This document shows, piece after piece, positions 6,269-61,982 of a stretch of 64,000 nt of DNA. The notes under the pieces were generated by a model that saw only the letters and a program-made list of their open reading frames with translations, was not told where the DNA came from and did no database searches. The position numbers and the translations under genes are program-made. Every line of letters starts with the position of its first letter. Within the stretch, counting starts at the first letter, position 1. The stretch spans positions 1 to 64,000 of the forward strand of contig JACKAX010000001.1 in the NCBI GenBank assembly GCA_020634875.1, in the 5' to 3' direction. This DNA comes from Anaerolineales bacterium. Its GTDB lineage: Bacteria > Chloroflexota > Anaerolineae > Anaerolineales > JABWBV01.

Positions 6269-6283
6269 AGACTTCCGAAGTCT
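6269..6283. repeat. ACTTCSGAAGT palindrome before clpB
   Basis: AGACTTC C GAAGTCT ends 7 bases before the GGAGG ribosome site of clpB. Its place fits either a repeat element or an operator or mRNA structure in the clpB leader. Confidence 0.6.
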
Positions 6284-6300
6284 GAACCCTGGAGGAACCC

Positions 6301-11777: not shown

Positions 11778-11779
11778 GA

Positions 11780-12178: not shown

Positions 12179-12202
12179 GGGTATTCTCCAAGAGAAGGTT
12201 TT

Positions 12203-13372: not shown

Positions 13373-13409
13373 AATATTCCTACAAGTTCTGAAATTTTTC
13401 CAAAAAACT

Positions 13410-13880: not shown

Positions 13881-13883
13881 CGG

Positions 13884-14258
13884 CTAATCCAGGTCGGTGA
13901 GATTTTCCGCGGCGGTACGCGGAAGAAGCCGGTCAGGTTCTTCTTCGAGCACATCCACCTCGCTAAAGGTGATTTCAGACATCATGGGGGGCAGGGGCGC
14001 GGTGGGGGGGATTTTCACGATAATGGGCGGGGGTTCCGGGGGGCGGGTGGTCGGACGGTCAAAGCTATAGGATCGTTTGCGGAGGATGCGGGGGCCATCT
14101 GCCAGGTATCCCACATATTTGCCCAAGACAGAAAAAACTTCTTTTTGGGAGTTGATAAAGCCGATCCATTCACCTTGCAGGTTGAAGAGGTAGGAATACT
14201 GCATATAGGCTTCAGCATCGCCAGAGGTCGTATAGATGGGGGTGAGTTTGTCGTCCAT
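13884..14258 (-). CDS. Conserved hypothetical, possible beta-flower domain
   Basis: The first 60 residues contain YLFNLQGEWIGFI and GKYVGYLADGPRIL, a pattern of short beta strands that resembles the 4-fold beta-flower domain, though I am not certain of that. The rest is a Pro-rich, probably unstructured linker and an acidic tail. It is 3 bases upstream of the thioesterase gene and likely co-transcribed. Confidence 0.65.
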   Translation of the reverse strand: MDDKLTPIYTTSGDAEAYMQYSYLFNLQGEWIGFINSQKEVFSVLGKYVGYLADGPRILRKRSYSFDRPTTRPPEPPPIIVKIPPTAPLPPMMSEITFSEVDVLEEEPDRLLPRTAAENLTDLD

Positions 14259-14413
14259 ATGGGGTGTATTATACCTGTGAAAGCAGGGGGGCTAGGGCAT
14301 GTTCGTAGTGCGAGGCAGTAGAAAAAAATTCCTCAAACGAATTTCCGAATAAAATGGGAGGCTCATTCGTAAGTATAGTGAAATCGTTCTTCAAAAAGGT
14401 CCTCTCCATGAGA

Positions 14414-14478
14414 AGGAACAGCGTTGCTTTGGCGATATTGAGAATTTCACACACATACCAAAAAGCAACGCCGTTCCT
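14414..14478. repeat. 17-bp inverted-repeat element before the sigma gene
   Basis: AGGAACAGCGTTGCTTT (14414-14430) and its complement at 14462-14478 match in 16 of 17 positions, with 31 bases between. It lies 38 bases before the GTG of the ECF sigma gene, so it could be a leader stem-loop or a small palindromic element. Confidence 0.65.
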
Positions 14479-14516
14479 GACCCCACAAATATGGTAGCAC
14501 CAAAAGGAAAACCCGC

Positions 14517-15086
14517 GTGGTAGCAGTCGAAAGTGAACCCACATTAATCCACATGGCCCAGCAGGGCGACCGGAACGCATTCGGCGAACTGGTTTTGCGG
14601 TATGCACATGGCGTTCAGCATGTGATTTACCGGATGTGTGGTGACGCGCACCTTGCGGAAGATGCTGCCCAGGAAACGTTCATTCGGGCGTGGCTTAATC
14701 TGAGTTCTTTTCGCCCACAGGCTTCATTACGAAACTGGTTGTACCGGATTGCCGTGAACACCGCGATTGATATGCTCCGCAAGGAGAAATTCATTTTGCC
14801 CAATGCGATGGATGATCTGCCCCTGATGGATCAACGCCCTGGCCCTGAGGCCTTGTTTTTGAACCGGGAGCAAATCGCCCTCGTCAAGCAGACGGTGTTG
14901 TCCCTGCCGGAAGCCAGCCGTGCAGTATTGGTTCTGAGAGAGTACGAAGGGCTTTCCTATCAAGAAATTTCCGAAGTACTCGACATTCCCGTGGGCACGG
15001 TGATGTCACGGTTGAATTATGCGCGTAATTTGCTCAAGGATAAGCTGAAACAACACAGAGCTAAAACGGAGGCTGTCTATGTCTGA
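14517..15086 (+). CDS. ECF-type RNA polymerase sigma factor
   Basis: Sigma region 2 is present with the AEDAAQETFIRAWLNLSSF motif (core binding and -10 recognition), and region 4 carries LREYEGLSYQEISEVL followed by PVGTVMSRLNYAR, the helix-turn-helix for the -35 box. The 189-residue length is typical for sigma-W/E type. The GTG at 14517 follows an AAGGAAAA ribosome site. It overlaps the anti-sigma gene by 8 bases, so the pair is co-expressed. Confidence 0.93.
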   Translation: MVAVESEPTLIHMAQQGDRNAFGELVLRYAHGVQHVIYRMCGDAHLAEDAAQETFIRAWLNLSSFRPQASLRNWLYRIAVNTAIDMLRKEKFILPNAMDDLPLMDQRPGPEALFLNREQIALVKQTVLSLPEASRAVLVLREYEGLSYQEISEVLDIPVGTVMSRLNYARNLLKDKLKQHRAKTEAVYV

Positions 15087-15750
15087 ACATGTAACCCAAT
15101 GGCTGAGTGCCTATCACGATGATGAATTGTCCGGGGGCAGACTTCACCAGGTAGAAACCCACCTCGCGGAATGTGTGAACTGCCAGGAAGCGTTGGCAGA
15201 TTTACAAAGCCTCTCGTTTCTGCTTCACGAAATCCCCTCCCCGGAATTCACCTCACCGGAACGCCTGTCTGCCCAGGTCAACCTGCGCCTCCCGCGTAAA
15301 CCCGTCCAAATTTCCCGACATCCCATCTGGGAAAAATGGGGCTGGACAATCCCCGTCGGCATCCTCGCCATGTGGGTGCTTGTGCTTGCGGTGGGGTTTT
15401 TGGGCGGGGTGGTTTCGACTGCAAATCAGTGGGGGCTGTTGAACACAAGTTCCGCGGGCAAGATTGACGTGGGCGCGGTGCAAATCGAGACGCTCCCGAA
15501 CTGGCTTGCCCCAAGCGATACGGCGGAGTGGTCAAATGTCTTGGGGCGGTTTGGTCTGCTCAATGGCAACGGTCTGACGCAGGCCACGTTTATTGAAAGT
15601 TTTGTACGCAGTACCCTGCCCCAACTTGTTTTGCAGGTTGCGATTGCGCTTTTATATCTTAGTTGGTTCGCGATTTGGTGGACGTATCGCACGCAAGAGG
15701 AGCCTGGCCGCCTCCTGGAAGTGGAAGTGTCCCCGTCGAAAATGAAATAA
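15079..15750 (+). CDS. Zinc-finger anti-sigma factor, membrane-bound
   Basis: The N-terminal anti-sigma domain has the zf-HC2 pattern with His (HLAECVNCQEAL) that binds zinc and holds the sigma factor. A membrane segment follows at about residues 90-115, then an outer region, and a second hydrophobic segment near residue 190. It would hold the upstream ECF factor at the membrane until a signal. The second membrane segment near the C-terminus is unusual for the simple class. Confidence 0.88.
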   Translation: MSEHVTQWLSAYHDDELSGGRLHQVETHLAECVNCQEALADLQSLSFLLHEIPSPEFTSPERLSAQVNLRLPRKPVQISRHPIWEKWGWTIPVGILAMWVLVLAVGFLGGVVSTANQWGLLNTSSAGKIDVGAVQIETLPNWLAPSDTAEWSNVLGRFGLLNGNGLTQATFIESFVRSTLPQLVLQVAIALLYLSWFAIWWTYRTQEEPGRLLEVEVSPSKMK

Positions 15751-17741: not shown

Positions 17742-19304
17742 ATGAAACGATTTCTTACCATCCTTCTCATCGTCATCGTCATCGGTGGTGGCCTGTTTGC
17801 CTTTGGCCAATACCGCGCCCAGCAAACCCGCGCAGAAACCCTCGCCAATTTACAAACCGAAGCCGCCCAAACCGGCTCATTGACCGCAACCGTTGGAGCT
17901 ACTGGGGTCGTCCATTCCAATCAGAGCGCCACCCTTACATGGGGAACCTCCGGCACTGTTGGAGAAGTCGCCGTCCGTGCAGGGGATTCCGTGACCACTG
18001 ATCAGGCACTCGCCTCGATCAACCAAACCACCCTCCCCCAAAACGTCATCCTCGCCCAGGCGGATCTCGTCAGCGCCCAGAAAGCCCTCGACGATTTATA
18101 CAACCTCGACCTGCAAAAAGCCCAGGCCGAAAAAGCCATCGAAGACGCCCAGAAAGCCCTCGATGATGCCCAAAATCCCGAATTGCAGCAGGCCCTCGCT
18201 CTTCAAAAGATTGCTGACGCCCAAAAAACCGTGGACACTGCCGAACGCAACCTCCGTCTCTTGCAAACGCCCGCCAGTCAGGCCGACATTGATGCAGCCA
18301 AAGCCCAAGTTGTCCTTGCCAAAGACGCCCTCGACCGTGCCCAAGATAACTTTGACCCGTGGGAAAGCAAACCTGAGGACAACCTCATCCGCGCCAACTT
18401 GCTCGCCAAACTCTCCGCCGCCCAGCAAAGTTACGATGCCGCTGTCCGCAACCTGAATGGGATGCTCGCCAACACAGCCAGCGCCACCGACCTCGCTGTT
18501 GCGGAAGCGGATGTCGCCACCGCCCAGGCCCAACTCCTCCAGGCCCAACGCGATTACGAAGATGTCAAAGACGGTCCCAGCACCGCGGAAATCTCCCTTC
18601 TTGAAGCGCAACTTTCTGATGCCCAGAAAAACTACGATGACCTAAATGCAGGTCCCGACCCCGACGATGTTGCCGCCGCCCAGGCCCGCATTGACGCCGC
18701 CCAGGCTACCCTGGACAGTGTCTCGATCAAAGCCCCTTTTGATGGCACCATCTCCGAAGTGAATGTCAAACCCGGTGATCTGGTCAGCCCCGGCTCCGTC
18801 GCCTTCAAACTTGATGACCTCTCCCGTCTGCTCGTGGACGTCGAGGTTTCCGAAGTGGACATCAATCGCATCCAAGTCGGGCAAAACGCGAGTTTGACCT
18901 TTGACGCCATCCTCAACAAAGAATATCAAGGCCAGGTTTCAGAAGTCGCGCTGGTGGGCACCACTTCTGCTGGGGTAGTAAGTTTCAAAATTACAATCGA
19001 ACTGCTCGACGCAGATGAAAACGTTCGGCCAGGGATGACGGCGGGGGTCAACATCGTAGTCAACGAGTTGCAGGATGTTCTCCTCGTCCCGAACCGCGCT
19101 GTGCGGTTGCTTAACGGCGAACGGGTTGTGTACATTCTCGATTCCACCTCCCCCGCGCCCGTTCCCGTGACCATTCAATTGGGCGTCTCCTCCGAAACTT
19201 ACAGCGAAGTCATCAGTGGCGAACTCAAAGTGGGCGACGAAATTGTTCTCAATCCTCCGACGGACTTTGGCTCCTTCTTCGCCGGTGGCCCTCCGGGGAG
19301 GTAA
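17742..19304 (+). CDS. MacA/HlyD-type periplasmic adaptor subunit
   Basis: One N-terminal membrane anchor (residues 4-22), a biotinyl-lipoyl half-domain, a long alpha-helical hairpin rich in Ala/Gln (about residues 110-320), the second lipoyl half (SVSIKAPFDGTISEVNVKPGD) and a beta-barrel domain with DINRIQVGQ. It links the inner-membrane ABC permease to the outside. At 520 residues it is longer than MacA of E. coli, chiefly in the coiled coil. GAGG lies 8 bases before the ATG. Confidence 0.92.
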   Translation: MKRFLTILLIVIVIGGGLFAFGQYRAQQTRAETLANLQTEAAQTGSLTATVGATGVVHSNQSATLTWGTSGTVGEVAVRAGDSVTTDQALASINQTTLPQNVILAQADLVSAQKALDDLYNLDLQKAQAEKAIEDAQKALDDAQNPELQQALALQKIADAQKTVDTAERNLRLLQTPASQADIDAAKAQVVLAKDALDRAQDNFDPWESKPEDNLIRANLLAKLSAAQQSYDAAVRNLNGMLANTASATDLAVAEADVATAQAQLLQAQRDYEDVKDGPSTAEISLLEAQLSDAQKNYDDLNAGPDPDDVAAAQARIDAAQATLDSVSIKAPFDGTISEVNVKPGDLVSPGSVAFKLDDLSRLLVDVEVSEVDINRIQVGQNASLTFDAILNKEYQGQVSEVALVGTTSAGVVSFKITIELLDADENVRPGMTAGVNIVVNELQDVLLVPNRAVRLLNGERVVYILDSTSPAPVPVTIQLGVSSETYSEVISGELKVGDEIVLNPPTDFGSFFAGGPPGR

Positions 19305-19307
19305 GGG

Positions 19308-19988
19308 ATGAGCGATCCAGTTATCATTGCCAAAGACTTAAGAAAAATCTACAAAATGGGCGATATCGAAGTCCACGCCCTGCGCGGCTTGTCCACTGAG
19401 GTGTACCGGGGGGAAGTGGTCTCAATTATGGGCCCGTCCGGATCGGGCAAATCCACGCTGATGAACATCATCGGTGCGTTGGACATCCCCACCAGCGGCG
19501 ATTACATCCTCGATGGGGAACGCGTCTCCGATCTGCGGGATGACCAACTTGCCGCCGTCCGCAACCGCAAGATCGGGTTCGTCTTCCAGAGTTTTAACCT
19601 CCTCTCGCGGGCCACCGCGCTGGCAAATGTGGAACTCCCCATGCGTTATGCGGGCATCACCAAAGGCCGCAAGCAACGCGCCAAAGAAGCCCTCGAAGCA
19701 GTTGGCCTGGGAGATCGCGTCAACCATCGGCCCACTGAACTCTCCGGCGGCCAACAGCAACGCGTCGCCATCGCTCGCGCACTGGTCAACAACCCCGCCA
19801 TCCTCCTCGCTGACGAACCCACCGGCAACCTCGATACCAAATCTGGCGTGGAGATCATGCAACTGCTCCTCAACCTGAACAAAGACCGGGGCACCACCCT
19901 CGTCATCGTCACCCACGACCCCGAAGTCGCCGAACAAACCCAGCGGGTCATTCGGATACGCGACGGAGTGGTGGAGGAAACACCATGA
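19308..19988 (+). CDS. ABC transporter ATP-binding protein, MacB/LolD type
   Basis: Walker [10 protein letters not shown]-loop VFQSFNLL, signature LSGGQQQR and Walker [13 protein letters not shown] are all present, with the H-loop VTHDPEVA. The short form without a membrane domain belongs to the MacB/LolD/FtsE group. It starts 3 bases after the adaptor gene and overlaps the permease gene by 4 (ATGA). Confidence 0.95.
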   Translation: MSDPVIIAKDLRKIYKMGDIEVHALRGLSTEVYRGEVVSIMGPSGSGKSTLMNIIGALDIPTSGDYILDGERVSDLRDDQLAAVRNRKIGFVFQSFNLLSRATALANVELPMRYAGITKGRKQRAKEALEAVGLGDRVNHRPTELSGGQQQRVAIARALVNNPAILLADEPTGNLDTKSGVEIMQLLLNLNKDRGTTLVIVTHDPEVAEQTQRVIRIRDGVVEETP

Positions 19989-21217
19989 CCATATTCCAGG
20001 CATTTCTCGAAGCCATCGAATCCCTCGCGGGGAACAAACTCCGCTCGGGGTTGACTATTCTCGGTATAGTGATCGGGGTCGGGGCCGTGATCGCGATGCT
20101 GTCCATCGGGCGGGGTGCGCAGGCTTCCATCACCGGCTCGATTCAAGGGATCGGAACCAACCTGCTTTTCGTCTTCCGCGGAAATTCGGATGATTCCGTG
20201 CGGAATCCCGCCCCCCTCACCCTGGGCGACGCGGACGCCATTTCTGAACCGTTTGCTGCCCCTGCCGTTTCCGGGGTCGCCCCCGTTTTGCAAGGGAGCG
20301 CAGAAGTCACCTACGGCAGCGAAAGCACCACCACCCAAGTGACCGGCGCAACCCCCGCGTACGGCCCTCTCCGCAATTACAACGTGACCGAAGGCGAGTT
20401 CATCAACGAGGGGCATTTGTTGGGCCGTTCATCTGTCGTGGTCCTCGGCCCGGACGTGGCAAAAGCCCTGTTCGGGCGCACGGAAGCCATCGTGGGCGAA
20501 ACCGTCCGCGTCGAAGGACAACCCTTCCGTGTGATCGGCGTCTTGGAAGCGAAAGGCGGTGGCGGTTTTGGCCCCAGCGAAGACGATCAGATTCTCGTCC
20601 CCCTTACCACGGCCCAAGCCCGGCTCATCCGCCGCAACCCCAGCGATCGCGTGGACATGATCATGGTGCAATCTATCAGCGCCGAAGCCGTGCCCCAGGC
20701 GCAGGAAGAAATTGCCGATATCCTCCGTGCCCGTCACAAGACCGCCGTCGGGATTGACGACTTTACCATCGCCACCCAACAGGAATTTTTGGACACCTTC
20801 TCGACCATTACGGGCGTGTTGACCATTTTCCTGGGCGGCATCGCGGGCATCTCTCTCCTCGTTGGCGGGATCGGGATCATGAACATCATGTTGGTCTCTG
20901 TCACCGAACGCACGCGGGAAATTGGCTTGCGAAAGGCGTTGGGCGCTCGCAAAGCGGACATTCTGATCCAGTTTTTGACGGAGTCTTCTGTCCTGAGTCT
21001 GGTTGGGGGGATTATCGGGATCGGGCTGGGTTGGTTGATTTCGATGATCGTTCAGCAAATCGCGGCCGCAAACGATACGGCGTTTATCCCCCAAATTGGG
21101 TGGGATGCAGTAATGCTTGCAACGATCTTTTCCGCCGCGGTGGGGTTGTTTTTTGGCATTTACCCCGCGAACCGGGCGGCGAGCCTGGAGCCAGTGGAAG
21201 CGTTAAGATACGAATAA
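19985..21217 (+). CDS. MacB/FtsX-type ABC permease
   Basis: The order is one N-terminal membrane segment, a large periplasmic MacB core domain (about residues 45-260), and three C-terminal segments; this is the fold of mechanotransmission ABC transporters. The cytoplasmic RTREIGLRKALGARK motif that contacts the ATPase is present. It works with the preceding two gene products. Substrates may be drugs, peptides or lipids; MarR control suggests a small molecule. Confidence 0.93.
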   Translation: MTIFQAFLEAIESLAGNKLRSGLTILGIVIGVGAVIAMLSIGRGAQASITGSIQGIGTNLLFVFRGNSDDSVRNPAPLTLGDADAISEPFAAPAVSGVAPVLQGSAEVTYGSESTTTQVTGATPAYGPLRNYNVTEGEFINEGHLLGRSSVVVLGPDVAKALFGRTEAIVGETVRVEGQPFRVIGVLEAKGGGGFGPSEDDQILVPLTTAQARLIRRNPSDRVDMIMVQSISAEAVPQAQEEIADILRARHKTAVGIDDFTIATQQEFLDTFSTITGVLTIFLGGIAGISLLVGGIGIMNIMLVSVTERTREIGLRKALGARKADILIQFLTESSVLSLVGGIIGIGLGWLISMIVQQIAAANDTAFIPQIGWDAVMLATIFSAAVGLFFGIYPANRAASLEPVEALRYE

Positions 21218-35268: not shown

Positions 35269-36813
35269 TTAAGGATGGGTTTCAATTTGCTCCAAGTAGG
35301 GGAGGTTCTTTTCTTGGAGTTGTTCTTTTACTGTGCTTAACATTTCGTCCCCAATACTTTTTTGGGTGGAATATAGATTGTTTAACTCTTCGGGGTCGTT
35401 TTCGAGATCGTAAAGCTCGAGAAGTTCGCTGCCATCGAGCTCGTTATATCCAAAGAAATACATGAGCTTGTAATTGCCCTGCACGAGCGCGACCGTGCCC
35501 TGTGTAATCGGGGCGTTTTCCGGGGTCTTTTCTGATTCGAGGACGAAGATGGGCCGGTCCGGAGCAGAGGGGCCAAATGGCGGTAGTAGAGTCCCTTCGC
35601 CCCACGCGGGCCTTTCCTGTCCGGTCAGATGGGCGAGGGTGGGGAGTACATCCAGCGCACTGGTTTTTTCGGTGATGTCCTGTCGGGTTTGCTGTCCGGG
35701 GGGAAAGATGAGCAGGGGGATGTGAATGACGGGTTGGTGCAAAAGGTAGGTGCTGTGTCCGCGCACGCCGCGCTCGAACAGTTCGCCATGGTCGGAGGTC
35801 AACACAAGCCAGGTGTTTTCTAAAATCCCCGCGCTTTCCAGCCCCTGATACAGCCGGGCAAATTCTGCGTCCACATAAAGAATGAATTCGTCGTACCACT
35901 GCCGTTGTTCGAGCAACCGTGCCGTCCCGACCCCGCGGTTGAACAAGTGTTTGGGCTTTTCCGGGGGGCGGTAGCCATCTCCTTGAAATGTGCCAAAAAA
36001 ATCATCCCGCGTGGCGTAGGGATTGTGTGGGGGCAAAAAGTGGTAGTAGCTCAAAAAAGGCTGTGGGACAGTGGCAACCTGGTCACGCAACCAGTCAATA
36101 CCGTTTTCCAGCAGAAAATAATCGTCTGTATTGATGTTCGGCAGACCACGGGGGAAATGCTGTAACAGATCGACGTATTTACGCGTCCGCAGCGCTTCAT
36201 AGATGCGGGCAAAAAACAGGGAGTAGTTCGAGTGATCCTCTTGAGGTTTTAGCGCACGTACCGCACTGACCGAGGCGATATCCTCATCCTTTTTGAAGAA
36301 GGAGTTGATTAACTGGTTCTTTTCTAAAAAGAGCTGCTCCCGAGGCACATAATCTTCGATTTCGCGGAAAAAAGCCTTAAGCACCGAATTTGCCAGGGGA
36401 TTGTGGGAATAGGCCATCCGGTGATAGTTGGGAAACGTATGGAAAAGGCTTTTGGTAGCAAATGTCTGGGTGACGGTTTTTGCGGGAAAGCCCATTGCAC
36501 GGTGGGTCCAGGGGAGTGTGCCGGTCAACAGGGAAGCGGTACCCGGTGTGGTAAAGTTTCCCCCGGAGAAGTGGTTGTGATAGACAATGGCCTTTTCAGC
36601 GAGCCGTTCGATATTTGGGGTGGTCTTGCGCGGGTAGCCATACAGGGACATATTATGGGCAGAAAAGGCATCAAAAACGACAATCAGCACGTTTTGGACA
36701 TTCGCGTTTTGCGGCAGTGCGTTGGTTGGAGCAATAAATTGGGGTAGAGCGTAACTTGCGGAAAGCAATCCGGCGAGTTTTAAAAAATCCCGGCGATTGA
36801 GCGGTTGGTTCAT
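35269..36813 (-). CDS. Tat-exported sulfatase-fold hydrolase with Thr at the nucleophile site
   Basis: The N-terminus NRRDFLKLAG is a twin-arginine signal. The alkaline phosphatase/sulfatase fold shows FDAFS (metal Asp48), and LTSDHGELFERG as the second metal site. At the place of the sulfatase nucleophile motif C/S-x-P-x-R it has T88-T-P-G-T92 followed by ASLLTG. The missing Cys/Ser and Arg point to a phospho- or phosphoglycerol-transferase-like reaction with Thr, or an inactive paralogue. It overlaps the next upstream gene by 4 bases. Confidence 0.88.
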   Translation of the reverse strand: MNQPLNRRDFLKLAGLLSASYALPQFIAPTNALPQNANVQNVLIVVFDAFSAHNMSLYGYPRKTTPNIERLAEKAIVYHNHFSGGNFTTPGTASLLTGTLPWTHRAMGFPAKTVTQTFATKSLFHTFPNYHRMAYSHNPLANSVLKAFFREIEDYVPREQLFLEKNQLINSFFKKDEDIASVSAVRALKPQEDHSNYSLFFARIYEALRTRKYVDLLQHFPRGLPNINTDDYFLLENGIDWLRDQVATVPQPFLSYYHFLPPHNPYATRDDFFGTFQGDGYRPPEKPKHLFNRGVGTARLLEQRQWYDEFILYVDAEFARLYQGLESAGILENTWLVLTSDHGELFERGVRGHSTYLLHQPVIHIPLLIFPPGQQTRQDITEKTSALDVLPTLAHLTGQERPAWGEGTLLPPFGPSAPDRPIFVLESEKTPENAPITQGTVALVQGNYKLMYFFGYNELDGSELLELYDLENDPEELNNLYSTQKSIGDEMLSTVKEQLQEKNLPYLEQIETHP

Positions 36814-38300
36814 GGCGCGACCTCTTCCAATTTTTTCTTTAATGCGCTTAAGAGCTGGTTCGTAAGTTCTTGCCGTGAAGGAGAAAGATCATCCAGTTCT
36901 TCAGGATCAGCTTCTACATCGTAAAGTTCCACCATTTCGCCTCCCTCCAGTTCTTCGTACCCGAAATAATAGATCAGTTTGTAATTCTCCCGCATCATGG
37001 CAACTGTCGCATTGTTAATGCCTCCGTTATCATCCTTTCCTTCGACCTGGAGCGAAAACACATCTCGGACAGTTCTCTGATCTGAAAACGGTGGCAGGAC
37101 CAGGCCTTGCGTCCACGCGGGGGCTGGCTGGTTCGTGAGATGCGCCAGCGTGGGCAGGACATCAATCGCACTGGTCACATCGTAAACGTCTTGGCGGGTT
37201 TGCTGCCCGGGGGCAAAAATCAACAAGGGAATATGGATGACCGGTTGATAAAGCACTTTGGAACGGTGCCCGCCGATCCCACGCTCAAACATTTCCCCGT
37301 GATCAGAAGTGAGAACCAGCCAGGTGTTTTTCAGGATGCCTTGCGATTCCAAAAAGTCGAAAAGCCGGGCAAATTCCGAGTCGACGTACAGGATGAATTC
37401 ATCGTATTCCTGCCGCCATTCCAGGAGTTTTTGCGTATTTCGGTCGCCGGAAAAAATATGCTGGGGTTTGTTTGGCGGACGGAGCCCATCGTTGCTAAAT
37501 TTACCCACAAAGTCTATACGAGTATGGTAGGGATCGTGCGGAGGGTTGAAGTGGTAGTATCCCAAAAAAGGTTGGGGCGCGTTGTCCAACTGACCCAGTG
37601 CCCAGTTGATCCCATCTTCCAAAAGGAAAAAGTTGTCGTCCACCATCACCGGTAAGCCGCGCGGAAATTGATCTTCCAACGCCGCGACACTCTTGGTTTT
37701 GTTCCGCTCGTAAAGGGGAGCCAGGAACAGCGAATATGAATAGCCTTCCAGTTGCCGTTTCAGGGCACGGCGCCAGCTTACCTCGGCGATGTCTTCATCC
37801 TTTTGAAACAGGATGTTGATCAGTGCGTCGCTTTGTAAATACAGTTTTTCGCGCGGGGTCAACCCCTCCATGCCTGAAAAGAAATCCTTCAACAGCGTGT
37901 TTGCCAGGATGTTATGGGAATAGGCCATCCGGTGATATGGAAACGCATGGAACAGACTTTTATCGGCGTAAGCGTCAATAACGATATCGTTGATCCCCAC
38001 CGCACCATGCGTCCAGGGGAGAACGCTGGTTAGCAGGGTGGCTGTCCCCGGCGTGGTGAAGTTCCCACCCGCGTAATGATGGTGGAAAACTGTTGCCCGT
38101 TCGGCCAGACGATCAATGTTGGGCGTGGTCTTGCGTTTGTAGCCGTACAGCGAAATGTTCGAGGCGGAAAATGTGTCGAACACTACGACGAGCACATTCT
38201 GCCCCTGAGCGGTTTGCAGGCCGGGACGAAACAACCACTGCGGCACGGCAGCACTCGCCGTGAGAAGGCCGGTGAGTTTCAAAAAATCTCTGCGGTTCAT
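36810..38300 (-). CDS. Tat-exported sulfatase-fold hydrolase, paralogue
   Basis: A close paralogue of the neighbouring enzyme with the same RRDFLK Tat signal, FDTFS (Asp42), the T82-T-P-G-T86 site and LTSDHGEMFERG. The two are collinear over their whole length, so they arose by tandem duplication. The ATG at 38300 (MNRRDF) is chosen over one 16 codons upstream, because the longer form would put a tail before the Tat signal. Confidence 0.88.
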   Translation of the reverse strand: MNRRDFLKLTGLLTASAAVPQWLFRPGLQTAQGQNVLVVVFDTFSASNISLYGYKRKTTPNIDRLAERATVFHHHYAGGNFTTPGTATLLTSVLPWTHGAVGINDIVIDAYADKSLFHAFPYHRMAYSHNILANTLLKDFFSGMEGLTPREKLYLQSDALINILFQKDEDIAEVSWRRALKRQLEGYSYSLFLAPLYERNKTKSVAALEDQFPRGLPVMVDDNFFLLEDGINWALGQLDNAPQPFLGYYHFNPPHDPYHTRIDFVGKFSNDGLRPPNKPQHIFSGDRNTQKLLEWRQEYDEFILYVDSEFARLFDFLESQGILKNTWLVLTSDHGEMFERGIGGHRSKVLYQPVIHIPLLIFAPGQQTRQDVYDVTSAIDVLPTLAHLTNQPAPAWTQGLVLPPFSDQRTVRDVFSLQVEGKDDNGGINNATVAMMRENYKLIYYFGYEELEGGEMVELYDVEADPEELDDLSPSRQELTNQLLSALKKKLEEVAP

Positions 38301-38307
38301 AGTGTTT

Positions 38308-38898
38308 CTAAAGGTTGCGGAGCATGACGATGACGAGGCTCCCCACATCCAGCACCAGATAAAGCGTCATCAGCAAGGAAATCCGTTCGATGACCCCTTG
38401 CAAGCCTCGGACAAATTTATCGGACCGGAGAACGAAATAGACCGGAAGCAAAACGGTCACGCCAACCACGATCATCATTAGGAGATAAAAAACGACGAGC
38501 GGGCGCGTCTGCCGTGTCAGAAACCAGAAGACGCCCGTCGGAAGAGTCCATCCTGCCATGAAGTGCAGTTGGTTGACCATCGCCCAAAGACTCACCGCCA
38601 GGATCAAGATGAAGAACAGCACCAGTCGTTTGTTTTCTTGCCAGGAAAAGCGGAGCAAACTGCTGAGGATCACCGCGATGAGAAACACAAACAGGCTTTC
38701 GACAAAGGCGATCAGCAGTCCATACGCCCCCACTCCCACGGCATCCCAGGCGTTTGTCCGCTCAGAGACCCAGGAAAAATCCCGTAGCACGAGCACAATC
38801 GTCCACACATGCGTGGGGAAAGCCGCTAGCAAGAACAACGTCCACAACCCGCCTTTCGATAAGCCTGTTACTTTTTTGAGTGCGTTAGAGATAGCCAA
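38308..38898 (-). CDS. Six-segment membrane protein
   Basis: An unrecognised 196-residue membrane protein with five or six hydrophobic segments and few charged residues. It is placed between the phosphodiesterase-like gene (overlap of 14 bases) and the paired sulfatase-fold genes, so it is a component of that operon, perhaps a membrane platform for the exported enzymes. This placement is inference. Confidence 0.72.
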   Translation of the reverse strand: MAISNALKKVTGLSKGGLWTLFLLAAFPTHVWTIVLVLRDFSWVSERTNAWDAVGVGAYGLLIAFVESLFVFLIAVILSSLLRFSWQENKRLVLFFILILAVSLWAMVNQLHFMAGWTLPTGVFWFLTRQTRPLVVFYLLMMIVVGVTVLLPVYFVLRSDKFVRGLQGVIERISLLMTLYLVLDVGSLVIVMLRNL

Positions 38899-40911: not shown

Positions 40912-41262
40912 GACACACTTCCTTCTAATTCTTTCTCCCGGCCTTCAGGAGAAAATCTTTTCAGAGATGAGGTTTGAGGTACATGGATCCCATCCCTGAA
41001 GAAGATATAAACGTTAACAAAAATTCAATTTCCCATTTCTCATTAATTCGTCAGAAAACAGAGGATATCTTTCTGAGTAAGGGTAAATAATAACCTTCTT
41101 TTCTGGGAAATAGATTAAGGACTCGTTCAAAGATTTCAGCAAACTGATGTGGATAGAACATTTTGCCCTTTGGACGAAGCCATCTCCCACACGAGCAGGG
41201 AAATGACTTCGCCAATAAAGTATTGTACAAATTCGCACCCACAAGGATGGAAAATTTGGTTT
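40912..41262. other. Intergenic region before the AP-superfamily operon
   Basis: This 351-base gap has short minus-strand ORFs (for example 41051-41242) with some protein-like wording (CSCGRWLRPKGKMFYPHQ). They have no ribosome site and no neighbour logic. I treat the stretch as a promoter region, possibly with a gene fragment. Confidence 0.4.
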
Positions 41263-42009
41263 TTATTGAATCTTCCCTTCCAAGAAGGTGATGATGGCAT
41301 CGTAAAAAGTGGACGGCAGTGCGCCGTTTCCGCCAAATTGTCTCCCGCCACCTGCGCCAGAGGCAATCGCAGTTTGTTGGGCCTCGGGACTAAAGCCGGT
41401 ACCATCTCCTCCCAAACCTCCTCCAGGGCCGCCACCCGGAAAGCCACCGCCACCTGGCCCACCCCCCGTAACGCCACCATCCGGGGGAACCCCACCTGAG
41501 AACCCGCTCCCTCCAGTGGTTCCGCCATTTTGCCGAGACTGTTGGAAAGCCTCGCGGGTAGCTTGCTGTTCGGGCGACAGGTTCGCCGGGTCAAAGTTAC
41601 CACCGCCAACAGACAGCCCATATTTTTCTCGCAAGGCTGTCATAGCATCAGAACTCATGTCGATTGTTTTAATCGCGTTCATTTGCTCGGCAGTCAGGGT
41701 ATCCTCGATTTGGGTGTAAATAGCCTGATACTCTTCGGCAGTAAGCGTTTCGTTATCTGCAAGGGCTTTGGCTGCTTTCCAGAGGGGAAGCAATTCTGCG
41801 GCCTGTTCGGCGGTGATGGCATAGTCCGTTTCTTCGAGGGCGAAGGTGCCGAGGGCTAGTTGCATGTTTGTTGGGGTATCCCCAGCGGGAGTTGGGTTAT
41901 TCGTTCCGGTTGTTTCTGTTGAGGTCGTATCTGTGCCGGATGAACAGGCAGAGAGAACGAAAAATAGAAAGAAGAGGAGAGAGATGAAGAGAAGGGTTAT
42001 TTTTTTCAT
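41263..42009 (-). CDS. Gly-rich lipoprotein B
   Basis: A lipobox LSAC ends the signal peptide at about residue 21. A helical domain follows with ALGTFALEETDYAITAEQ and the LPLWKAAKAL segment (about residues 55-120), then a long Gly/Pro-rich stretch and a C-terminal helix with YDAIITFLEGK. Lipoprotein A (45916-46608) has the same domain order. The ATG at 42009 is 8 bases after AAGGA. It is the last gene of the MacA/MacB operon. A related domain occurs beside such exporters elsewhere, without a known role. Confidence 0.8.
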   Translation of the reverse strand: MKKITLLFISLLFFLFFVLSACSSGTDTTSTETTGTNNPTPAGDTPTNMQLALGTFALEETDYAITAEQAAELLPLWKAAKALADNETLTAEEYQAIYTQIEDTLTAEQMNAIKTIDMSSDAMTALREKYGLSVGGGNFDPANLSPEQQATREAFQQSRQNGGTTGGSGFSGGVPPDGGVTGGGPGGGGFPGGGPGGGLGGDGTGFSPEAQQTAIASGAGGGRQFGGNGALPSTFYDAIITFLEGKIQ

Positions 42010-42027
42010 AGGAGGTTCCTTAAAAAC

Positions 42028-42067
42028 GTGATAAGTGACGGGGCTCTTATCACTCACCACTTATCAC
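42028..42067. repeat. GTGATAAGTG/CACTTATCAC inverted repeat
   Basis: Perfect 10-bp arms with a 20-base loop that itself contains another CTTATCAC. It lies between the permease gene and lipoprotein B, 3 bases after the permease stop, and may set their expression ratio. Confidence 0.6.
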
Positions 42068-42069
42068 AA

Positions 42070-43308
42070 TTATTCGTGCCGTAAAGCCTCAATTGGATCG
42101 AGCCGGGCAGCTTGATTGGCTGGATAAAAGCCGAAGAAAATGCCGACGGCGGCGGCAGAAGTAAAGGCCAGGATGATCGAACTCGGCAGCACTACGGTTC
42201 GTAGTTCTCCATAAGCGCCGTACAGGTATGCTCCAGCGATGCCAACAAGCACGCCGAGCAAGCCCCCCGCGAGGCTGAGCAGCATGGCTTCGGTCAAAAA
42301 TTGCCAACGAATGTCATTAGGCGTGGCCCCGATAGACTGCCGAATGCCAATCTCGCGCGTCCGTTCGGTGACACTCACAAGCATGATGTTCATGATGCCA
42401 ATGCCCCCAACGATAAGGGAGACGGCGGCCACCCAGGCCAGCAGGCTTCGGAACGCAGCGGTGGTGGATTCTTGGGTTGTGATCAGGTCTTGTTGCGTGG
42501 TGACCGTGAAATCCGGGGAGTCCAGGGTTACATCGTGGCGGCGGGCCAGAAGCAGTTCGATTTGCAGGATTACGTCATCCTGGTTTGCCTCATCTGTGGT
42601 TTCAACATAAATCAGTTGGACGGAATCGCCACGCACACGAGCAAAGAACGAAGGGGTAAATTTATCGAAGACGACGGTGATCGGGACATAGATACGAGAG
42701 TCGTAGTCCGTTTCGCCAACCAGCCCACGGTCTTCAAACACGCCGATGACGGTCATTTTTACATCCCCGACGGAAACCACCTGCCCGACAGGGGTACCGT
42801 TTTCGCCAAACAGTTCTACCGCGAGGGACGAGCCGAGGATGGCGACTTTTTGGGAGCGGTCCACTTCTTTTTGGGTGAAGTAACGTCCGGTGGCAATGGT
42901 CATATCTCGCACGGAAGGGAAATCGGGTGTGGTGCCCAGAACGGAAACGCTTTCGACGGTGGCATTCCCGGCTTTGACCGTTTGGGAACTGGGCTGTTCA
43001 ACGACAACACCTTCAACGCCGCTGATGTTTTGGTCAATTGCTGTAGCATCATCAAACGTCAGGCCACCGGTTTGTCCGCCCCCACCTGGGCCAAAACCCC
43101 CGCGTTGAAAGCTGCTGCGGACAAAGATCAGATTGGTCCCAAGACTGTTGATTTGTTCCTCGATGCTGGCCTCTGTTCCGGCGCTGACAGAGATCATGAC
43201 GATGACTGCGGCCACCCCAATGATGACCCCCAACATGGTGAGTAAAGAGCGAAGTTTGTTTCTGGACAAGCCGGTCCAGGCGATGCGTATGATTTTAGAG
43301 AATTTCAT
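42070..43308 (-). CDS. MacB-type ABC permease
   Basis: Same fold as the permease at 19985: one N-terminal membrane segment, a large periplasmic core domain with a Gly-rich insert ([14 protein letters not shown]), and three C-terminal segments with [15 protein letters not shown]. The start at 43308 gives an ATGA overlap with the ATPase stop and a GGAGGA ribosome site 6 bases upstream; an ATG at 43314 has no room for one. It works with the adjacent ATPase and adaptor. Confidence 0.92.
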
Positions 43309-44048
43309 GTCCATTCCTCCGCTGGGTGGGAGACCGGGTTGTGAATGGGGGTGTGCCCGTTTAGCACGTCCGAATCAATTTTGCCGTCCAGGAATCGGAT
43401 GACGCGCTTAGCATGGGCGGCGATGTCATCCTCATGCGTGACCATGACGATGGTTCGTCCGCGGTCGTGCAGTTCGTGAAGAAGGGCCATGATTTCATAG
43501 CTGGAATGGCTGTCCAGGTTCCCGGTGGGTTCATCGGCGAGGATCAGGATCGGATCGTTGATCAGGGCGCGGGCGATGGCGACGCGTTGTTGCTGGCCGC
43601 CTGAGAGTTCGTGCGGCTGGTGATTGGCCCGGTCGGCCAGACCTACGGCCCCCAACGCTTGCAGCGCCATTTCGCGATGCTCGATGTTGGTGTGGGTCCC
43701 ATTGTGTTTGTAGAGCAGAGGGAGCATCACATTTTCAAGGGCAGTGGTACGGGCAAGCAGGTTGTAAGACTGGAAAATAAAGCCGAGCCGTTGGTTGCGA
43801 ATATGAGCAAGTTGAGCCTTTTTGAGATTACTGACATCTTCTCCGGCCAAAATATATTGACCAGAAGTGGGGCGATCCAGACAGCCGAGGATGTTCATCA
43901 ATGTACTTTTGCCGGACCCCGAGGGACCCATGATGGCGACAAATTCATTTTCCCCGATCTGGACATCCACCCCATCCAGGGCATGCACTTGGATATCGCC
44001 CATGCCATAGACTTTGGTGAGATTTTGGGTTTGGATGATGGTGTTCAT
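43305..44048 (-). CDS. ABC transporter ATP-binding protein, MacB/LolD type
   Basis: Walker [10 protein letters not shown]-loop FIFQSYNLL, signature LSGGQQQR, Walker [14 protein letters not shown] and H-loop VTHEDDIA are present. The last 20 residues form a non-conserved tail. It overlaps the permease gene by 4 bases and forms the motor of the second exporter in the window. Confidence 0.95.
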
Positions 44049-44124
44049 AAGTACCTCGTAGACAGGTAAACATGTAAACAGGTGTTTTCCCTGTCTACAT
44101 GTCTACTTTGTAAACCTGTTTACT
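44049..44124. repeat. GTAGACAGG/CCTGTCTAC repeat between adaptor and ATPase genes
   Basis: Nested words GTAGACAGG, GTAAACAGG and their complements fill this gap of 76 bases. Perfect 9-bp arms can form a hairpin within the operon, which might set the ratio of adaptor to ATPase. Confidence 0.5.
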
Positions 44125-45705
44125 CTATTGTCCTGTCTCCACAATCCCTGTTGTCACCACATCCCCGGCAGACAGACCTGATTTGATTTCAGCGGTGGTG
44201 AAATCCTGAATGCCGACCTCAACAAAGCGAATCTTAGGCTCACCATTTTCCATCACAAAGACGGAATATTCGTCCGTTCCGATTTGATGGAGGGCCTCCA
44301 CGGGGATTAACACAGCGTTCGTTGCGCGGCCGCCAATGACGTCTACGCTGGCGCTCAGCCCCGCGGGGAGGGTCGTCGTTTTGGCATAATCGGTCAACTG
44401 GACGACCGTTTTGACAGCAGCTACGCCCCCCACAGATTCTAGAACCGGGCTAACCTCAACCACGGTACCGTGGAAGGTATCATCCGGGTAAGCATCGAAA
44501 ACGATTTCCGCTTCATAACCCAGTGCTACATTCGCCAGGTCAGTCTCATCCAAATAAACTTCCAGTAAGGGGTGGGCCAGATCGGCGACGGTGATGATGC
44601 CCGTTGTCCCCACCTTTTCCCCAACGCTGGCACCGATATTGGTCACAGTGGCGTCAATCGGAGAGGTGAGTTCGATGATGGATTGCTTTTCCTGCGCCAG
44701 GGCGAGGTCTGCCTGAGCGCTGGTGAGTTTGGCTTCAGCGATGGCGACTTCCAAAGAATCAGGGGCGTCTTTGATTTTGTCATAGGTGGCCTGTGCGGCC
44801 GCGAGGGTCGCTTCGGCGATAGCAACTTCCCCGGGAGTAGGGCCAGCGACAAGTTTGTCATAGGCGGTCTGGGCATCGGCAAGGTTAGCTTCCGCGAGGG
44901 CCAGGTCTGCATCAGCAGTAGCAATGTCTGTTTCCGAGTTGGGGATGATCAAATAGTTGTAATTCGCAAAAGCCAGGTCCATCTTATCTTGAGCAGAGAC
45001 CAGATTTTGCAGGGCACGCACACGTTCGGGGTTGGTAATCGCTTTGTGTTCTACTTCGGCAAAGGCCTTAGCAGCTTCTTTGTAAGATTCTTTGGCTAGC
45101 AGATAATTCGTGTAGGCTTCCTGAATGGTCAGGTCATCGGCGCGGGCATAATCAAGTTTGGTACGGTCCTTTTGTGCTTCCACTACGGCATCTTGGGCGC
45201 TCAACAGGGCTACGTATGCGGAAGCGATTTGGTCTTCAGATGCGCTGAGGTTATCCAGCGTGGTTTGCGCATCTTCAACGGCCTTGAGGGCCTGGGCAGC
45301 CTCCATTTGGTGGTTGGCATAAATCGTATCGAGGTCTTGTTGGGCGGTGAGGACATCCAGTTCAGCGTTCGCCACAACGGCAGCAAGGTCTTCCGCAGAG
45401 TTATCGGTTTGCAGACGGGCAAGCACTTGCCCGGCAGTGACCTTTTCCCCAACGGTGACGAGAATTTCGCTGACAGTGCCGCTTTCATCAAAGCCCAGCG
45501 ATAATTCCGAAGAGGGCACTACCTCACCCGCTGCACTGGCAAAAATCTCAAGATCGCCCAAGTAGGCAACAGTAGTTTGGATGGTTTCAGTTTGTTCGAC
45601 CGTTTGGGAAGATTGAGCATAGGCAGTGTAGCCATAATAACCTCCCCCGGCGAGAATGATAATCACGATGAGCGTGATGGCGAGCACCTTTTTATTTTTG
45701 AACAT
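44125..45705 (-). CDS. MacA/HlyD-type periplasmic adaptor subunit
   Basis: One membrane anchor (residues 6-30), two lipoyl half-domains (VTVGEKVTAGQVLARL and TNIGASVGEKVGTTG) around a long Ala-rich coiled coil (about 115-340), and a beta-barrel. The 526-residue length and domain order match the adaptor at 17742. It opens the second exporter operon. A direct-repeat site (45811-45840) lies about 110-135 bases upstream. Confidence 0.92.
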   Translation of the reverse strand: MFKNKKVLAITLIVIIILAGGGYYGYTAYAQSSQTVEQTETIQTTVAYLGDLEIFASAAGEVVPSSELSLGFDESGTVSEILVTVGEKVTAGQVLARLQTDNSAEDLAAVVANAELDVLTAQQDLDTIYANHQMEAAQALKAVEDAQTTLDNLSASEDQIASAYVALLSAQDAVVEAQKDRTKLDYARADDLTIQEAYTNYLLAKESYKEAAKAFAEVEHKAITNPERVRALQNLVSAQDKMDLAFANYNYLIIPNSETDIATADADLALAEANLADAQTAYDKLVAGPTPGEVAIAEATLAAAQATYDKIKDAPDSLEVAIAEAKLTSAQADLALAQEKQSIIELTSPIDATVTNIGASVGEKVGTTGIITVADLAHPLLEVYLDETDLANVALGYEAEIVFDAYPDDTFHGTVVEVSPVLESVGGVAAVKTVVQLTDYAKTTTLPAGLSASVDVIGGRATNAVLIPVEALHQIGTDEYSVFVMENGEPKIRFVEVGIQDFTTAEIKSGLSAGDVVTTGIVETGQ

Positions 45706-45810
45706 TGGGCTACTCCATTGAATAGGTGTCTAAGAACACGAGTTGCGAGAATTGTTTCGGATGCTTTATCAAAGCTTTTTTCGATTGTAGGCTCGCCCCG
45801 TGAACGAGAA

Positions 45811-45840
45811 ATGAAGAAGATATGGAGAAGTTATGAAGAT
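45811..45840 (-). promoter_or_regulatory. Putative response-regulator site upstream of the exporter operon
   Basis: Read on the minus strand, CTTCATAA, CTTCTCCA and CTTCTTCA follow each other, the last two exactly 11 bases apart, as OmpR/PhoB-type regulators require. Matching sites lie at 46692-46722 and 62136-62166. Confidence 0.6.
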
Positions 45841-45860
45841 ACTAAAATCTGGAACACCCT

Positions 45861-45897
45861 AAAAAAGATGGGAAAACAGCCGCCTTCCCATCTTTTT
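45861..45897. terminator. Bidirectional terminator after lipoprotein A
   Basis: An 8-bp stem GATGGGAA/TTCCCATC with A6 and T5 flanks lies 20 bases downstream of the lipoprotein A stop. It makes lipoprotein A a transcription unit separate from the exporter operon. Confidence 0.8.
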
Positions 45898-45915
45898 ATT
45901 ACGGGCATTTTTCCG

Positions 45916-46608
45916 CTACTGCCCCTTGCTTTCCAGAAGTTGGATAATTTGATCGTAGAGTCTGGAGAGTATTGGATCCCCAGACAAAGTAGAGGCTGTG
46001 GTGGAATCAGAGGTTGAAGTCTGCGTGGTTGATCCAGTACCAAGACTCGTGCCACCTACATCCGGGATACCTCCTGCTCCACCCCCTGGATCGCCCCCTA
46101 TAAACGCCCCGCCATCGGGAGAGCCACCTGCAGGCGCGTCGCCTGTGGGCGCAGTCCCGCTTAGTTGTCCAGTTTGTGCGGTGGTTTGGGTTCCGTTTCC
46201 TGTGGCTTGAGATGGCTGGGTATACGCCATCATGTTTTGTGAGGTCAGTTGCAGTGCGGCGATGGCGTTCAATTGTTCGGTCGTCATCGTTTCTTCAATT
46301 TGGGTGAAGATGGCTTGAAATTCTTCCATGGTAATGGTCGAACTGTCGGAAAGGGCTTGTGCAGCCCGCCACAAGGGCAGGAGTTCCGCGGCTTGTGCGG
46401 CGGTGAGGGCATTATCGGTATCTTCTAATGCAAAAACGCCCACAGCTAGTTGGGCATTGATCGAGAGGGCATTGTCATAACGGGTGTTGAGAATGCCAGT
46501 GGACGAGGTTGTCGTTTCAGTTCCGGCGAGGTTTGCCTGCGCCACAGAAGCACAGGCTGAAAGGGTGAATAAGATCACAAGCGCGAGAGGGAGAATGAGC
46601 TTTTTCAT
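45916..46608 (-). CDS. Gly-rich lipoprotein A, paralogue of B
   Basis: Signal peptide with lipobox LSAC, a helical domain with VFALEDTDNALTAAQ and the LPLWRAAQAL segment, a Gly/Pro/Ala-rich linker, and a C-terminal helix with YDQIIQLLESK. It aligns with lipoprotein B end to end. The exporter operon lies directly downstream but is separated by a terminator. GGAG is 7 bases before the ATG at 46608; an earlier in-frame start would break the signal peptide. Confidence 0.8.
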   Translation of the reverse strand: MKKLILPLALVILFTLSACASVAQANLAGTETTTSSTGILNTRYDNALSINAQLAVGVFALEDTDNALTAAQAAELLPLWRAAQALSDSSTITMEEFQAIFTQIEETMTTEQLNAIAALQLTSQNMMAYTQPSQATGNGTQTTAQTGQLSGTAPTGDAPAGGSPDGGAFIGGDPGGGAGGIPDVGGTSLGTGSTTQTSTSDSTTASTLSGDPILSRLYDQIIQLLESKGQ

Positions 46609-60131: not shown

Positions 60132-61982
60132 TTACCGTCTCCCGCCCCCACTGCCCATCTGCGTGACGGTGCTAGACACTTTGAAAGTGCCCACTTCCGT
60201 GCCGGGCGTGTATGCCCCATCCTGGATCAATCCATCCGCGGCTGTGCCAGTCGAACTGCCTTCAACGTAGATAGTGTAGGTTTCACCCTGCGCCAGATCG
60301 GGCGAGGAAAAAGCTAGGGATTGGTAGTTTTTCGTTGGGACGAAGGTCAATACATCTTCGCCCGCACTGTTTTGAATGTGTACGATAGTTCCTGACGGGA
60401 TGGTTGTGCCGAAGTAAACCAGGAGGGAATTTTGGCTGGATGATTCACCTGGAACCTGCGCCATCCCTGCACTGCCCGTGGCCACAAGCAATCCACCGGT
60501 GATATTGAACCCGCTATCATAATCCAGGGGACCATTCATTTGCTCGGTCGGGCCGTTGACCAACACCGTCCCACCCGTCATCTGTACTGCCCCGTTGACG
60601 TCAATCCCATCGCCATTTGCATCCACGACGATATATCCGCCGTTGATGTAGAGATAGTAGTTGCCTGTGTAGTCGAAGAAATCTGCGCCCGGCCCGCCAG
60701 GTCTGGCCCCACCCGGCCCGCCGAACCCACCCCCAGCGCCAAATCCGGACCCATCGTTACCACTCGCGACGTTGATACCATCATCACTGGACACCAGCCA
60801 GATATTACCGCCGTTGATCGTGATCACGGCACTTTCGATGCCTTCGTAGGATTGGGTAATCTGAATGGTTCCGGCGTTAATTTCAAGGGCGGTGTCCGCG
60901 TGCATCCCGTCATCGCCACTTGAGAGAGTGAATGTGCCCCCGTTGACGATCAGTGTCCCGTTCGAGTGCAGGGTGTCGTCGGCGGAGTCAATTGTGAACG
61001 TGCCATTCTCGATATTGAGGCTGACGACGGCTTTGATGCCTTTGGCGGAGGCGGTGTCGGCAATCCGCGCATTACTGCCCCCGCCAGAAGTCAAGACAAA
61101 CTCCCCATCGGCGATCATCACGTCGGTTTCGGCGGAAATCGCGTCGCCGCCTACGGTAATTTGCAAACTTCCGTTTTCCACGGAGATGTAGCCTAGTGTG
61201 ACATCTGTGTCATTGTCAGATTTCAGTCCGTCGCCGCCCGCGTTAACCGTGAGTGTGCCATCTTTGATGATCAGGTAATCTTTGCCACGAATGCCATCAT
61301 CCACCGCATTGACGGTGATTATCCCGCTGGTGATGACCAGGCCGTCTTTGCTGGTGATGCCATCGTTGTAATTGCCATTGACGGTCAGCGACCCGTTGCC
61401 GAAGATGGTCAGGTCGGCTTTGCTGAAGAGGGCTGCGTTGGGTTCGTCCGTTTCCGCATCGGGGTAAATGTAAGAGGCTGCATCAGTGAGGGTGTTTTGC
61501 GTACCGTCGGCGAGTTCGATAACGACTTTTTCGGCCTTGAGGATGGCAAGCGGTGCGCTGGTCGAACTATTGATCGTGATGCCGTTCAGAATCAGGTGTA
61601 CAGTGCCTTCATCCTCGGTCTCGATAACAATCTGCCCATCGGACAGGGTTCCACTCAGGGTATACACCCCGGCCCGCGTGATGGTGGCAACGTTGCCCGC
61701 GATACTGACCCCATTTTTGTCAGCAGAAATCGTCTCGCCGCTCAAAACGATCTGCACGGCGGAAGTGCTGTCGTACTGGTAATCTTCTGCATCCTCATGC
61801 GATTCGCTGTTTTCCGCAAGAACTTCTACGACTGTATCGGCCTCGGTGCTAACGCCGGTCACCTCGGTAGCTGCGCCGGTGTCACTGGTGGTTGCGATCA
61901 AATCAGACAAATTTTGGCACCCAGCCATCGCAAAGATAGTCATCATGCCGATCCCCAAAATCCAAATTGTTTTCTTTTTCAT
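60132..61982 (-). CDS. Cthe_2159-like parallel beta-helix lipoprotein
   Basis: A lipobox MAGC ends the signal peptide near residue 22. The rest is built from repeats of about 20 residues such as VTITRAGVYTLSGTL, DGQIVIETEDEGTVHLIL and the family phrases NGNYNDGITSKDGLVIT and VNAGGDGLKSDNDTDV; this is the PF14262-type carbohydrate-binding beta-helix of Cthe_2159. A Gly/Pro-rich loop (GFGAGGGFGGPGGARPGG) interrupts it and a beta-sandwich tail closes it. Related proteins bind cellulose or pectin and Ca. AAGGAG precedes the ATG. Confidence 0.9.
   Translation of the reverse strand: MKKKTIWILGIGMMTIFAMAGCQNLSDLIATTSDTGAATEVTGVSTEADTVVEVLAENSESHEDAEDYQYDSTSAVQIVLSGETISADKNGVSIAGNVATITRAGVYTLSGTLSDGQIVIETEDEGTVHLILNGITINSSTSAPLAILKAEKVVIELADGTQNTLTDAASYIYPDAETDEPNAALFSKADLTIFGNGSLTVNGNYNDGITSKDGLVITSGIITVNAVDDGIRGKDYLIIKDGTLTVNAGGDGLKSDNDTDVTLGYISVENGSLQITVGGDAISAETDVMIADGEFVLTSGGGSNARIADTASAKGIKAVVSLNIENGTFTIDSADDTLHSNGTLIVNGGTFTLSSGDDGMHADTALEINAGTIQITQSYEGIESAVITINGGNIWLVSSDDGINVASGNDGSGFGAGGGFGGPGGARPGGPGADFFDYTGNYYLYINGGYIVVDANGDGIDVNGAVQMTGGTVLVNGPTEQMNGPLDYDSGFNITGGLLVATGSAGMAQVPGESSSQNSLLVYFGTTIPSGTIVHIQNSAGEDVLTFVPTKNYQSLAFSSPDLAQGETYTIYVEGSSTGTAADGLIQDGAYTPGTEVGTFKVSSTVTQMGSGGGRR

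Follow-up and report, generated by a model that had tools for sequence, protein, structure and literature searches.

A lipoprotein family encoded beside one MacAB-type exporter subfamily in Anaerolineae: a candidate lipid-anchored pump component

Introduction

MacAB-like pumps of Gram-positive bacteria have been proposed to keep toxins and drugs off the membrane (PMC5985334, PMC5768738), and a review has raised the question of what such adaptor-bearing pumps do in the absence of an outer membrane (PMC5985334). The YknWXYZ pump of Bacillus needs an additional non-adaptor protein, YknW (PMC4887032), and in Acinetobacter the deletion of baeR lowers the expression of macAB (PMC4498774). For the phylum Chloroflexota, the general view is that an outer membrane is absent (PMC13319060). 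In this study, a MacAB-type exporter locus was analysed at positions 41263 to 46608 (minus strand) of a 64,000-nucleotide stretch of an Anaerolineales genome of this phylum (start of contig JACKAX010000001.1; the whole stretch is hereafter called the window), where adaptor, ATPase and permease genes lie between the genes of two lipoproteins, LipA and LipB. The helical domain common to both is here named DOM. With a probability of about 0.55, the DOM lipoproteins are the dedicated lipid-anchored outside component of one MacAB-type exporter subfamily in Anaerolineae, a reading that rests on the two-way linkage of DOM and the permease, the lipoprotein signal and the conservation of the helical domain.

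Results and Discussion

Linkage of DOM with one permease subfamily

In a sample of 298 evenly drawn genomes of the class Anaerolineae (that of Anaerolinea thermolimosa), DOM was found in 56. Under a stricter search 59 of the 60 DOM places held (a neighbouring tandem copy was counted with its place; locus L127 was dropped), and at 53 of these 59 an exporter gene is adjacent to DOM on the same strand. Fifty-two of them were counted by script and one, L080, by reading, its permease having been masked by an overlapping open reading frame (ORF) in the scripted count. Among the 52, DOM follows directly after the permease in 45 cases (median gap 31 nt) and directly precedes the adaptor in 7; the set of adaptor, ATPase and permease is complete at 43 places and partial at 9. 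When 84,980 species genomes were scanned with a single conserved DOM peptide, 17 loci were obtained, all in Chloroflexota (L009 and L013 share one genome, as do L014 and L016). At 14 of them DOM has an exporter gene as its immediate neighbour on the same strand, the exceptions being L001 (where the contig starts), L013 and L016.

The linkage was also found in the opposite direction. At a threshold of E<=1e-120, the window permease has counterparts at 53 places in 51 of the 298 genomes, and 50 of these 51 genomes carry DOM (Fisher p 7e-49). Fifty of the 53 permease places coincide with DOM places, and at two more (L128 and L130) the contig stops directly behind the permease. Since MacB_PCD overall is present in 293 of the 298 genomes, the link of DOM is to one permease subfamily. 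DOM and this subfamily show a near-obligate two-way linkage.

The first-pass annotation of the window had considered whether the domain stays next to MacA/MacB-like genes, and the 53 of 59 places indicate that it does; the opposite outcome, a domain found mostly away from such exporters, therefore did not occur. A broken gene in relatives, the other counter-sign considered there, was encountered once among the loci read through, namely the DOM gene of L017, a locus that also lacks the ATPase and permease. This fits a joint loss, and a single case proves nothing.

The lipoproteins and their common domain

LipA (230 aa; 45916..46608, minus strand) and LipB (248 aa; 41263..42009, minus strand; AF2 model m0132ab9c3a8a) are both intact, match the DOM profile with 119.8 and 131.9 bits, respectively, and have an N-terminal signal peptide and lipobox with no later membrane segment. 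In a transmembrane (TM) check of both proteins the signal peptide alone was hydrophobic enough for a TM segment. They are indeed paralogous lipoproteins with a common helical domain, as had been suggested, with 56% identity over 87 columns and as mutually closest rows among 82. With LipB as query, a protein search retrieved 600 sequences at E<=1e-3, therefore the likeness of LipA and LipB is not due to chance, and a second search with 16 divergent DOM members gave 579 proteins. Among the matches listed (120 for each search), the source name of the homologues was "hypothetical protein" and the named organisms were Chloroflexota, with the exception of one KSB1 bin. The latter protein (P0121) lies on a 2980-base contig of a bin named candidate division KSB1, which is either an occurrence outside Chloroflexota or a binning error.

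The DOM core comprises about 90 residues, and L58, L76, W77, E93, Q100 and Q109 are invariant in 104 sequences. No His or Cys besides the lipobox Cys is conserved in these sequences, which makes a metal site unlikely. The C-terminal helix pointed out in the first-pass annotation is conserved as well (I240 in 100 of 103 sequences and L243 in all 103). Averaged over blocks of ten residues, pLDDT lies at about 85 to 98 for the core and C-terminal helix of two AlphaFold models, and confidence is low over most of the Gly-rich stretch. Because most rows in the structural alignments of both models span the core to the last residues, we read the Gly-rich stretch as a long predicted loop inside one helical domain that is closed by the C-terminal helix. 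The models thus place the Gly-rich linker and the C-terminal helix of the first-pass annotation within a single domain.

Pfam gave no convincing match for DOM in the 104 members, and a precomputed PF25934 label on one protein (P0019) was not reproduced on rescan. A literature search of titles and abstract openings, with subscription papers mostly outside its coverage, returned no description of the family.

Tandem pairs of DOM genes occur at 10 of the 59 places. In a DOM tree built on few columns, with 24 of 79 inner branches open, the first and second copies of several loci fall into separate clades, so the tandem pairs were apparently kept over time. As LipA and LipB are each other's nearest relatives in the same tree, the pairing seems to have arisen more than once. 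Long forms of DOM proteins include LysM (L104 and L110), PD40 propeller repeats (L070), Cthe_2159 (L122) and, by eye, a beta-helix (L125).

Two-component genes and other neighbours of DOM

Two-component genes constitute 58 of the 284 genes located up to three genes from the module versus 4 of the 115 located farther off (p 6e-6), and at least one such gene lies near DOM at 32 of the 59 loci, at least two at 24. Six kinases near DOM were scanned, and the NCBIfam model BaeS was either the first match or second to WalK, always under the cut-off (scores of 240-325 versus equivalog cut-offs of 500 and 603); in three of the six the BaeS match covers the sensor part too. A gene for an HtrA-like protease is present up to four genes from DOM in 8 of 75 loci (L071, L075, L078, L089, L097, L098, L104 and L122), a count that has no control set. 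Two of these proteases were scanned and consist of a trypsin-like part and PDZ, while the L122 gene is in two pieces. Such a neighbour fits an envelope-stress setting.

Several other genes near DOM were recorded. DUF4405 membrane proteins are encoded after DOM in L003 (10913-11434) and L069 (7421-7939), and a product similar by eye in L124 (3802-4623). Small secreted-looking proteins of 140-149 aa follow DOM in L004 (9000-9434), L010 (1565-2014) and L001 (546-968), and those of L004 and L010 had no Pfam match. In L126, an ORF at the contig end (1-1073) joins an adaptor-like N-terminal part with a DOM C-terminal part, which is due to a deletion or a misassembly.

Proposed function and alternative explanations

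We infer that DOM is a fourth component of a MacAB-type efflux pump that works without TolC, within an envelope-stress module. The TolC-type channel PF02321 is absent from 14 of 16 genomes of relatives and marginal in the other two, and 15 of the 16 carry DOM. In the proposed mechanism, the DOM domain would dock beside the outer domain of the permease or the channel of the adaptor. On the outer side of the membrane it would capture amphipathic or misfolded substrates and assist in their transfer to the pump, perhaps in a Spy-like manner. Under envelope stress, a two-component system containing a BaeS-like kinase would activate the module in many relatives, and the module of the window may be under stress control too. 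There, LipB would be produced along with the pump, and LipA, expressed on its own, would provide an additional pool or dampen the stress signal. A lipoprotein nearly always encoded with one subfamily offers a concrete partner candidate for pumps of this kind, and the DOM-pump module suggests that efflux and stress signalling are tied together in a phylum that has received little study.

A number of observations weigh against this reading. Gene linkage by itself does not show contact. Five of the 59 DOM places (L085, L122, L124, L125 and L126) have no exporter beside them, and the DOM place of L123 is cut by a contig end, with the permease of the same genome at another contig end. At L129 the permease is accompanied by a response regulator and a kinase with no DOM downstream, the upstream flank being cut. 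The module of the window has no two-component system next to it, so that for stress control the mechanism relies on relatives, and some kinases near DOM (e.g. those of L085, L098 and L110) are by eye unlike the BaeS-like ones. In Acinetobacter, direct binding of BaeR at the macA promoter was not seen (PMC4498774). The fusions to LysM, propeller and beta-helix parts would fit a wall or surface role too, and the envelope of two other Chloroflexota looks diderm-like in tomograms (PMC13319060).

The same neighbourhoods could also be explained by DOM being a stress sensor like CpxP or ZraP, which would bind the sensor domain of the BaeS-like kinase and be titrated away from it by damaged proteins or toxic compounds; the pump would be no more than a neighbour in the regulon. 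We consider this unlikely. It would account for the two-component genes found up to three genes away in 32 of the 59 loci, for L123 and L124, where DOM lies beside response regulator and histidine kinase genes with no exporter beside it (L123 starts at a contig end), and for the weak matches of DOM members to LTXXQ (3 of 104) and Metal_resist (4 of 104), the best E among them being 0.006. However, the window and 27 of the 59 loci (some cut by contig ends) have no two-component genes nearby, DOM follows the permease better than the kinase, and L129, with its cut upstream flank, combines the pump with a response regulator and histidine kinase and has no DOM downstream. A very unlikely explanation is that the DOM lipoproteins are cargo: a MacB/LolD-type machine would carry these Gly-rich proteins, or the surface domains fused to them, away from the membrane and into the wall or outer layers, much like LolCDE of diderms. 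LolD is the second-best match of the window ATPase, DOM is fused to LysM, PD40, beta-helix and Cthe_2159 parts and Gly-rich loops recur, all of which would suit cargo; yet Chloroflexota are generally held to have no outer membrane (PMC13319060, where contrary tomograms are noted), a MacA-type adaptor accompanies the pump in 43 of the 52 adjacent loci, unlike in Lol, and cargo genes would be expected to be more variable and to occur also away from the pump.

The first-pass annotation had regarded the locus as a module for a surface structure and had linked it with Cthe_2159-like genes. That DOM is a building block of an undescribed surface structure, together with Cthe_2159-like proteins, persists as one reading, though one to which we give very little credence. 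It could draw on one Cthe_2159-DOM fusion (L122) and one fusion of DOM with a beta-helix (L125, recognized by eye), but the supposed gene link was not borne out: Cthe_2159 is present in 36 and DOM in 56 of the 298 genomes, with both in only 10 (p = 0.11), and apart from the L122 fusion protein no contig is common to the listed Cthe_2159 matches and the DOM places. Moreover, the commonest neighbour after exporter and two-component genes is the HtrA-like protease (9 of 76 loci) and not a surface protein, and the recurrent two-component genes with BaeS-like kinases point to stress-linked efflux rather than to a surface structure. A linkage of Cthe_2159 with DOM was rejected; one Cthe_2159 frame without DOM (G301:C9) is as long as that of the fusion. 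The window itself encodes a Cthe_2159-family protein with a Gly-rich insert (60132-61982), 13.5 kb from the module, and in another genome (L134) about 4 kb separate a Cthe_2159 gene (5563-7545) from a second-subfamily MacAB set (11337-15091).

The preferred reading, a dedicated lipid-anchored partner of the pump, can also be put in a stronger form, in which DOM is an obligatory fourth subunit of MacAB-type pumps in bacteria without an outer membrane. As a membrane-tethered Spy-like chaperone with its Gly-rich loop reaching into the adaptor channel, it would perform at the outer face the tasks that TolC and free periplasmic chaperones have in Gram-negatives, and paired paralogues would form a heteromeric collar. 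This form is quite unlikely.

Gene arrangement and exporter type in the window

The minus-strand order of LipA, adaptor, ATPase, permease and LipB given in the first-pass annotation was confirmed with ORFs and domain matches. The adaptor (44125..45705, 526 aa) is of the MacA/RND membrane-fusion type, with HlyD_D23/HlyD_3 matches and 102.5 bits to TIGR01730 (cut-off 94.9), and its nearest solved chains are ZneB and MacA; the MacA equivalog was not reached (68.8 bits, cut-off 342). Its extra length is probably located within the helical hairpin. The ATP-binding subunit (43305..44048) is of the LolD/MacB type (ABC_tran); its best NCBIfam match is the N-terminal part of MacB, followed by LolD and DarD, all under cut-off. 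The MacB-like permease (42070..43314) contains MacB_PCD (PF12704, 1e-43; 150.4 bits, cut-off 27) and FtsX (PF02687, 2e-22; 79.6 bits, cut-off 25.5), and matches the MacB structures 5nik, 5gko and 5lil. The equivalog of the fused MacB ATPase-permease, NF007826, was not reached by either of the two separate genes (242 bits for the permease and 263 for the ATPase versus 966). The Gly-rich insert reported in the outer domain of the permease is real (19 residues with 9 Gly), and this loop is variable: of 63 related permeases, a set that includes truncated ones, 35 have at least 5 Gly there. The window carries a second MacAB set (17742-21217, with its permease at 19985-21217), which is of another subfamily and has no DOM gene as a neighbour. 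In relatives, two or three tandem MacA-like adaptor genes followed by a single ATPase and permease were observed in L007 (3598-7964), L009 (509-4893), L011 (3493-7847), L015 (2550-6900) and L008 (5030-7889), which suggests mixed adaptor rings.

Placement of DOM on both sides of the exporter was seen only in the window (0 of 75 compared DOM loci, many of them cut by contig ends); elsewhere among these loci DOM lies on one side, as a single gene or tandem pair. Four hairpins were found on the minus strand between or behind the genes. A terminator-like one with a T run lies 3' of LipA (45862..45897; fold of 45855-45925, z -4.97, 0/200 shuffles as stable), in agreement with the separate terminator earlier ascribed to LipA, although the consensus scan does not list it. 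A long hairpin without a T run separates adaptor and ATPase (44066..44106; fold of 44045-44130, z -6.15, 0/200 shuffles), a hairpin followed by GTTTTT, possibly an attenuator, lies between permease and LipB (42022..42067; fold of 42005-42075, z -2.81, 2/200 shuffles as stable), and a stable hairpin is located 3' of LipB (41170..41215; fold of 41170-41270, z -5.84, 0/200 shuffles). Because of the hairpins between permease and LipB and between adaptor and ATPase, the membership of LipB in the exporter operon, assumed in the first-pass annotation, is likely but not proven. Within the window, the repeat-like words of the intergenic hairpins are confined to them. Consensus scans of the window gave no excess of terminator sites (7 versus 7.5 in shuffles) and no clear excess of promoters, and an Rfam search found no family. 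Farther along (35269-38348), two similar, adjacent sulfatase-like genes have Tat-like signal sequences, as judged by eye.

Comparison with known systems

Spy, which belongs to the Bae regulon, and the related cases CpxP and ZraP resemble DOM as small helical extracytoplasmic proteins with LTxEQ-like helix starts that are often encoded beside two-component genes, whereas DOM is predicted to be lipidated and has a long Gly-rich loop. Membership of DOM in the Spy/LTXXQ family was rejected. LipA and LipB have no match to the curated Pfam LTXXQ or Metal_resist models, a PF13801 search of 12 genomes gave one sub-threshold match, and hhalign yielded probabilities of 4% and 15% over 18 and 48 columns (unrelated control, 0.2%), with a narrow Spy profile of six sequences, the Spy matches listed being mostly near-identical enterobacterial Spy. 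Comparison of the DOM models with the PDB gave no confident match of any kind, helical bundles being hard for such a comparison. The BaeSR envelope-stress system, to which six DOM-adjacent kinases are matched through BaeS in first or second place, and which has no counterpart beside the window module, affects efflux pumps, including MacAB in Acinetobacter (PMC4498774).

Another parallel is YknWXYZ of Bacillus, a four-component MacAB-type pump with one extra membrane-bound accessory (PMC4887032). YknW is a Yip1-family protein, whereas in the DOM lipoproteins no TM segment follows the signal peptide, and their membership in that family was rejected, there being no Yip1 Pfam match and no multi-pass membrane protein. 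By analogy, DOM may work like YknW or Spy. The exporter of the window can also be set beside MacAB(-TolC), SpMacAB and Spr0693-0695, with which it shares a MacA-type adaptor, a MacB-type outer domain, an FtsX-type membrane part and a LolD/MacB-type ATPase. Its adaptor has 526 aa, unlike the MacA chains of 371 aa, and its ATPase and permease are encoded by separate genes, as in Spr0694-0695; unlike all of these systems, it adds a DOM lipoprotein.

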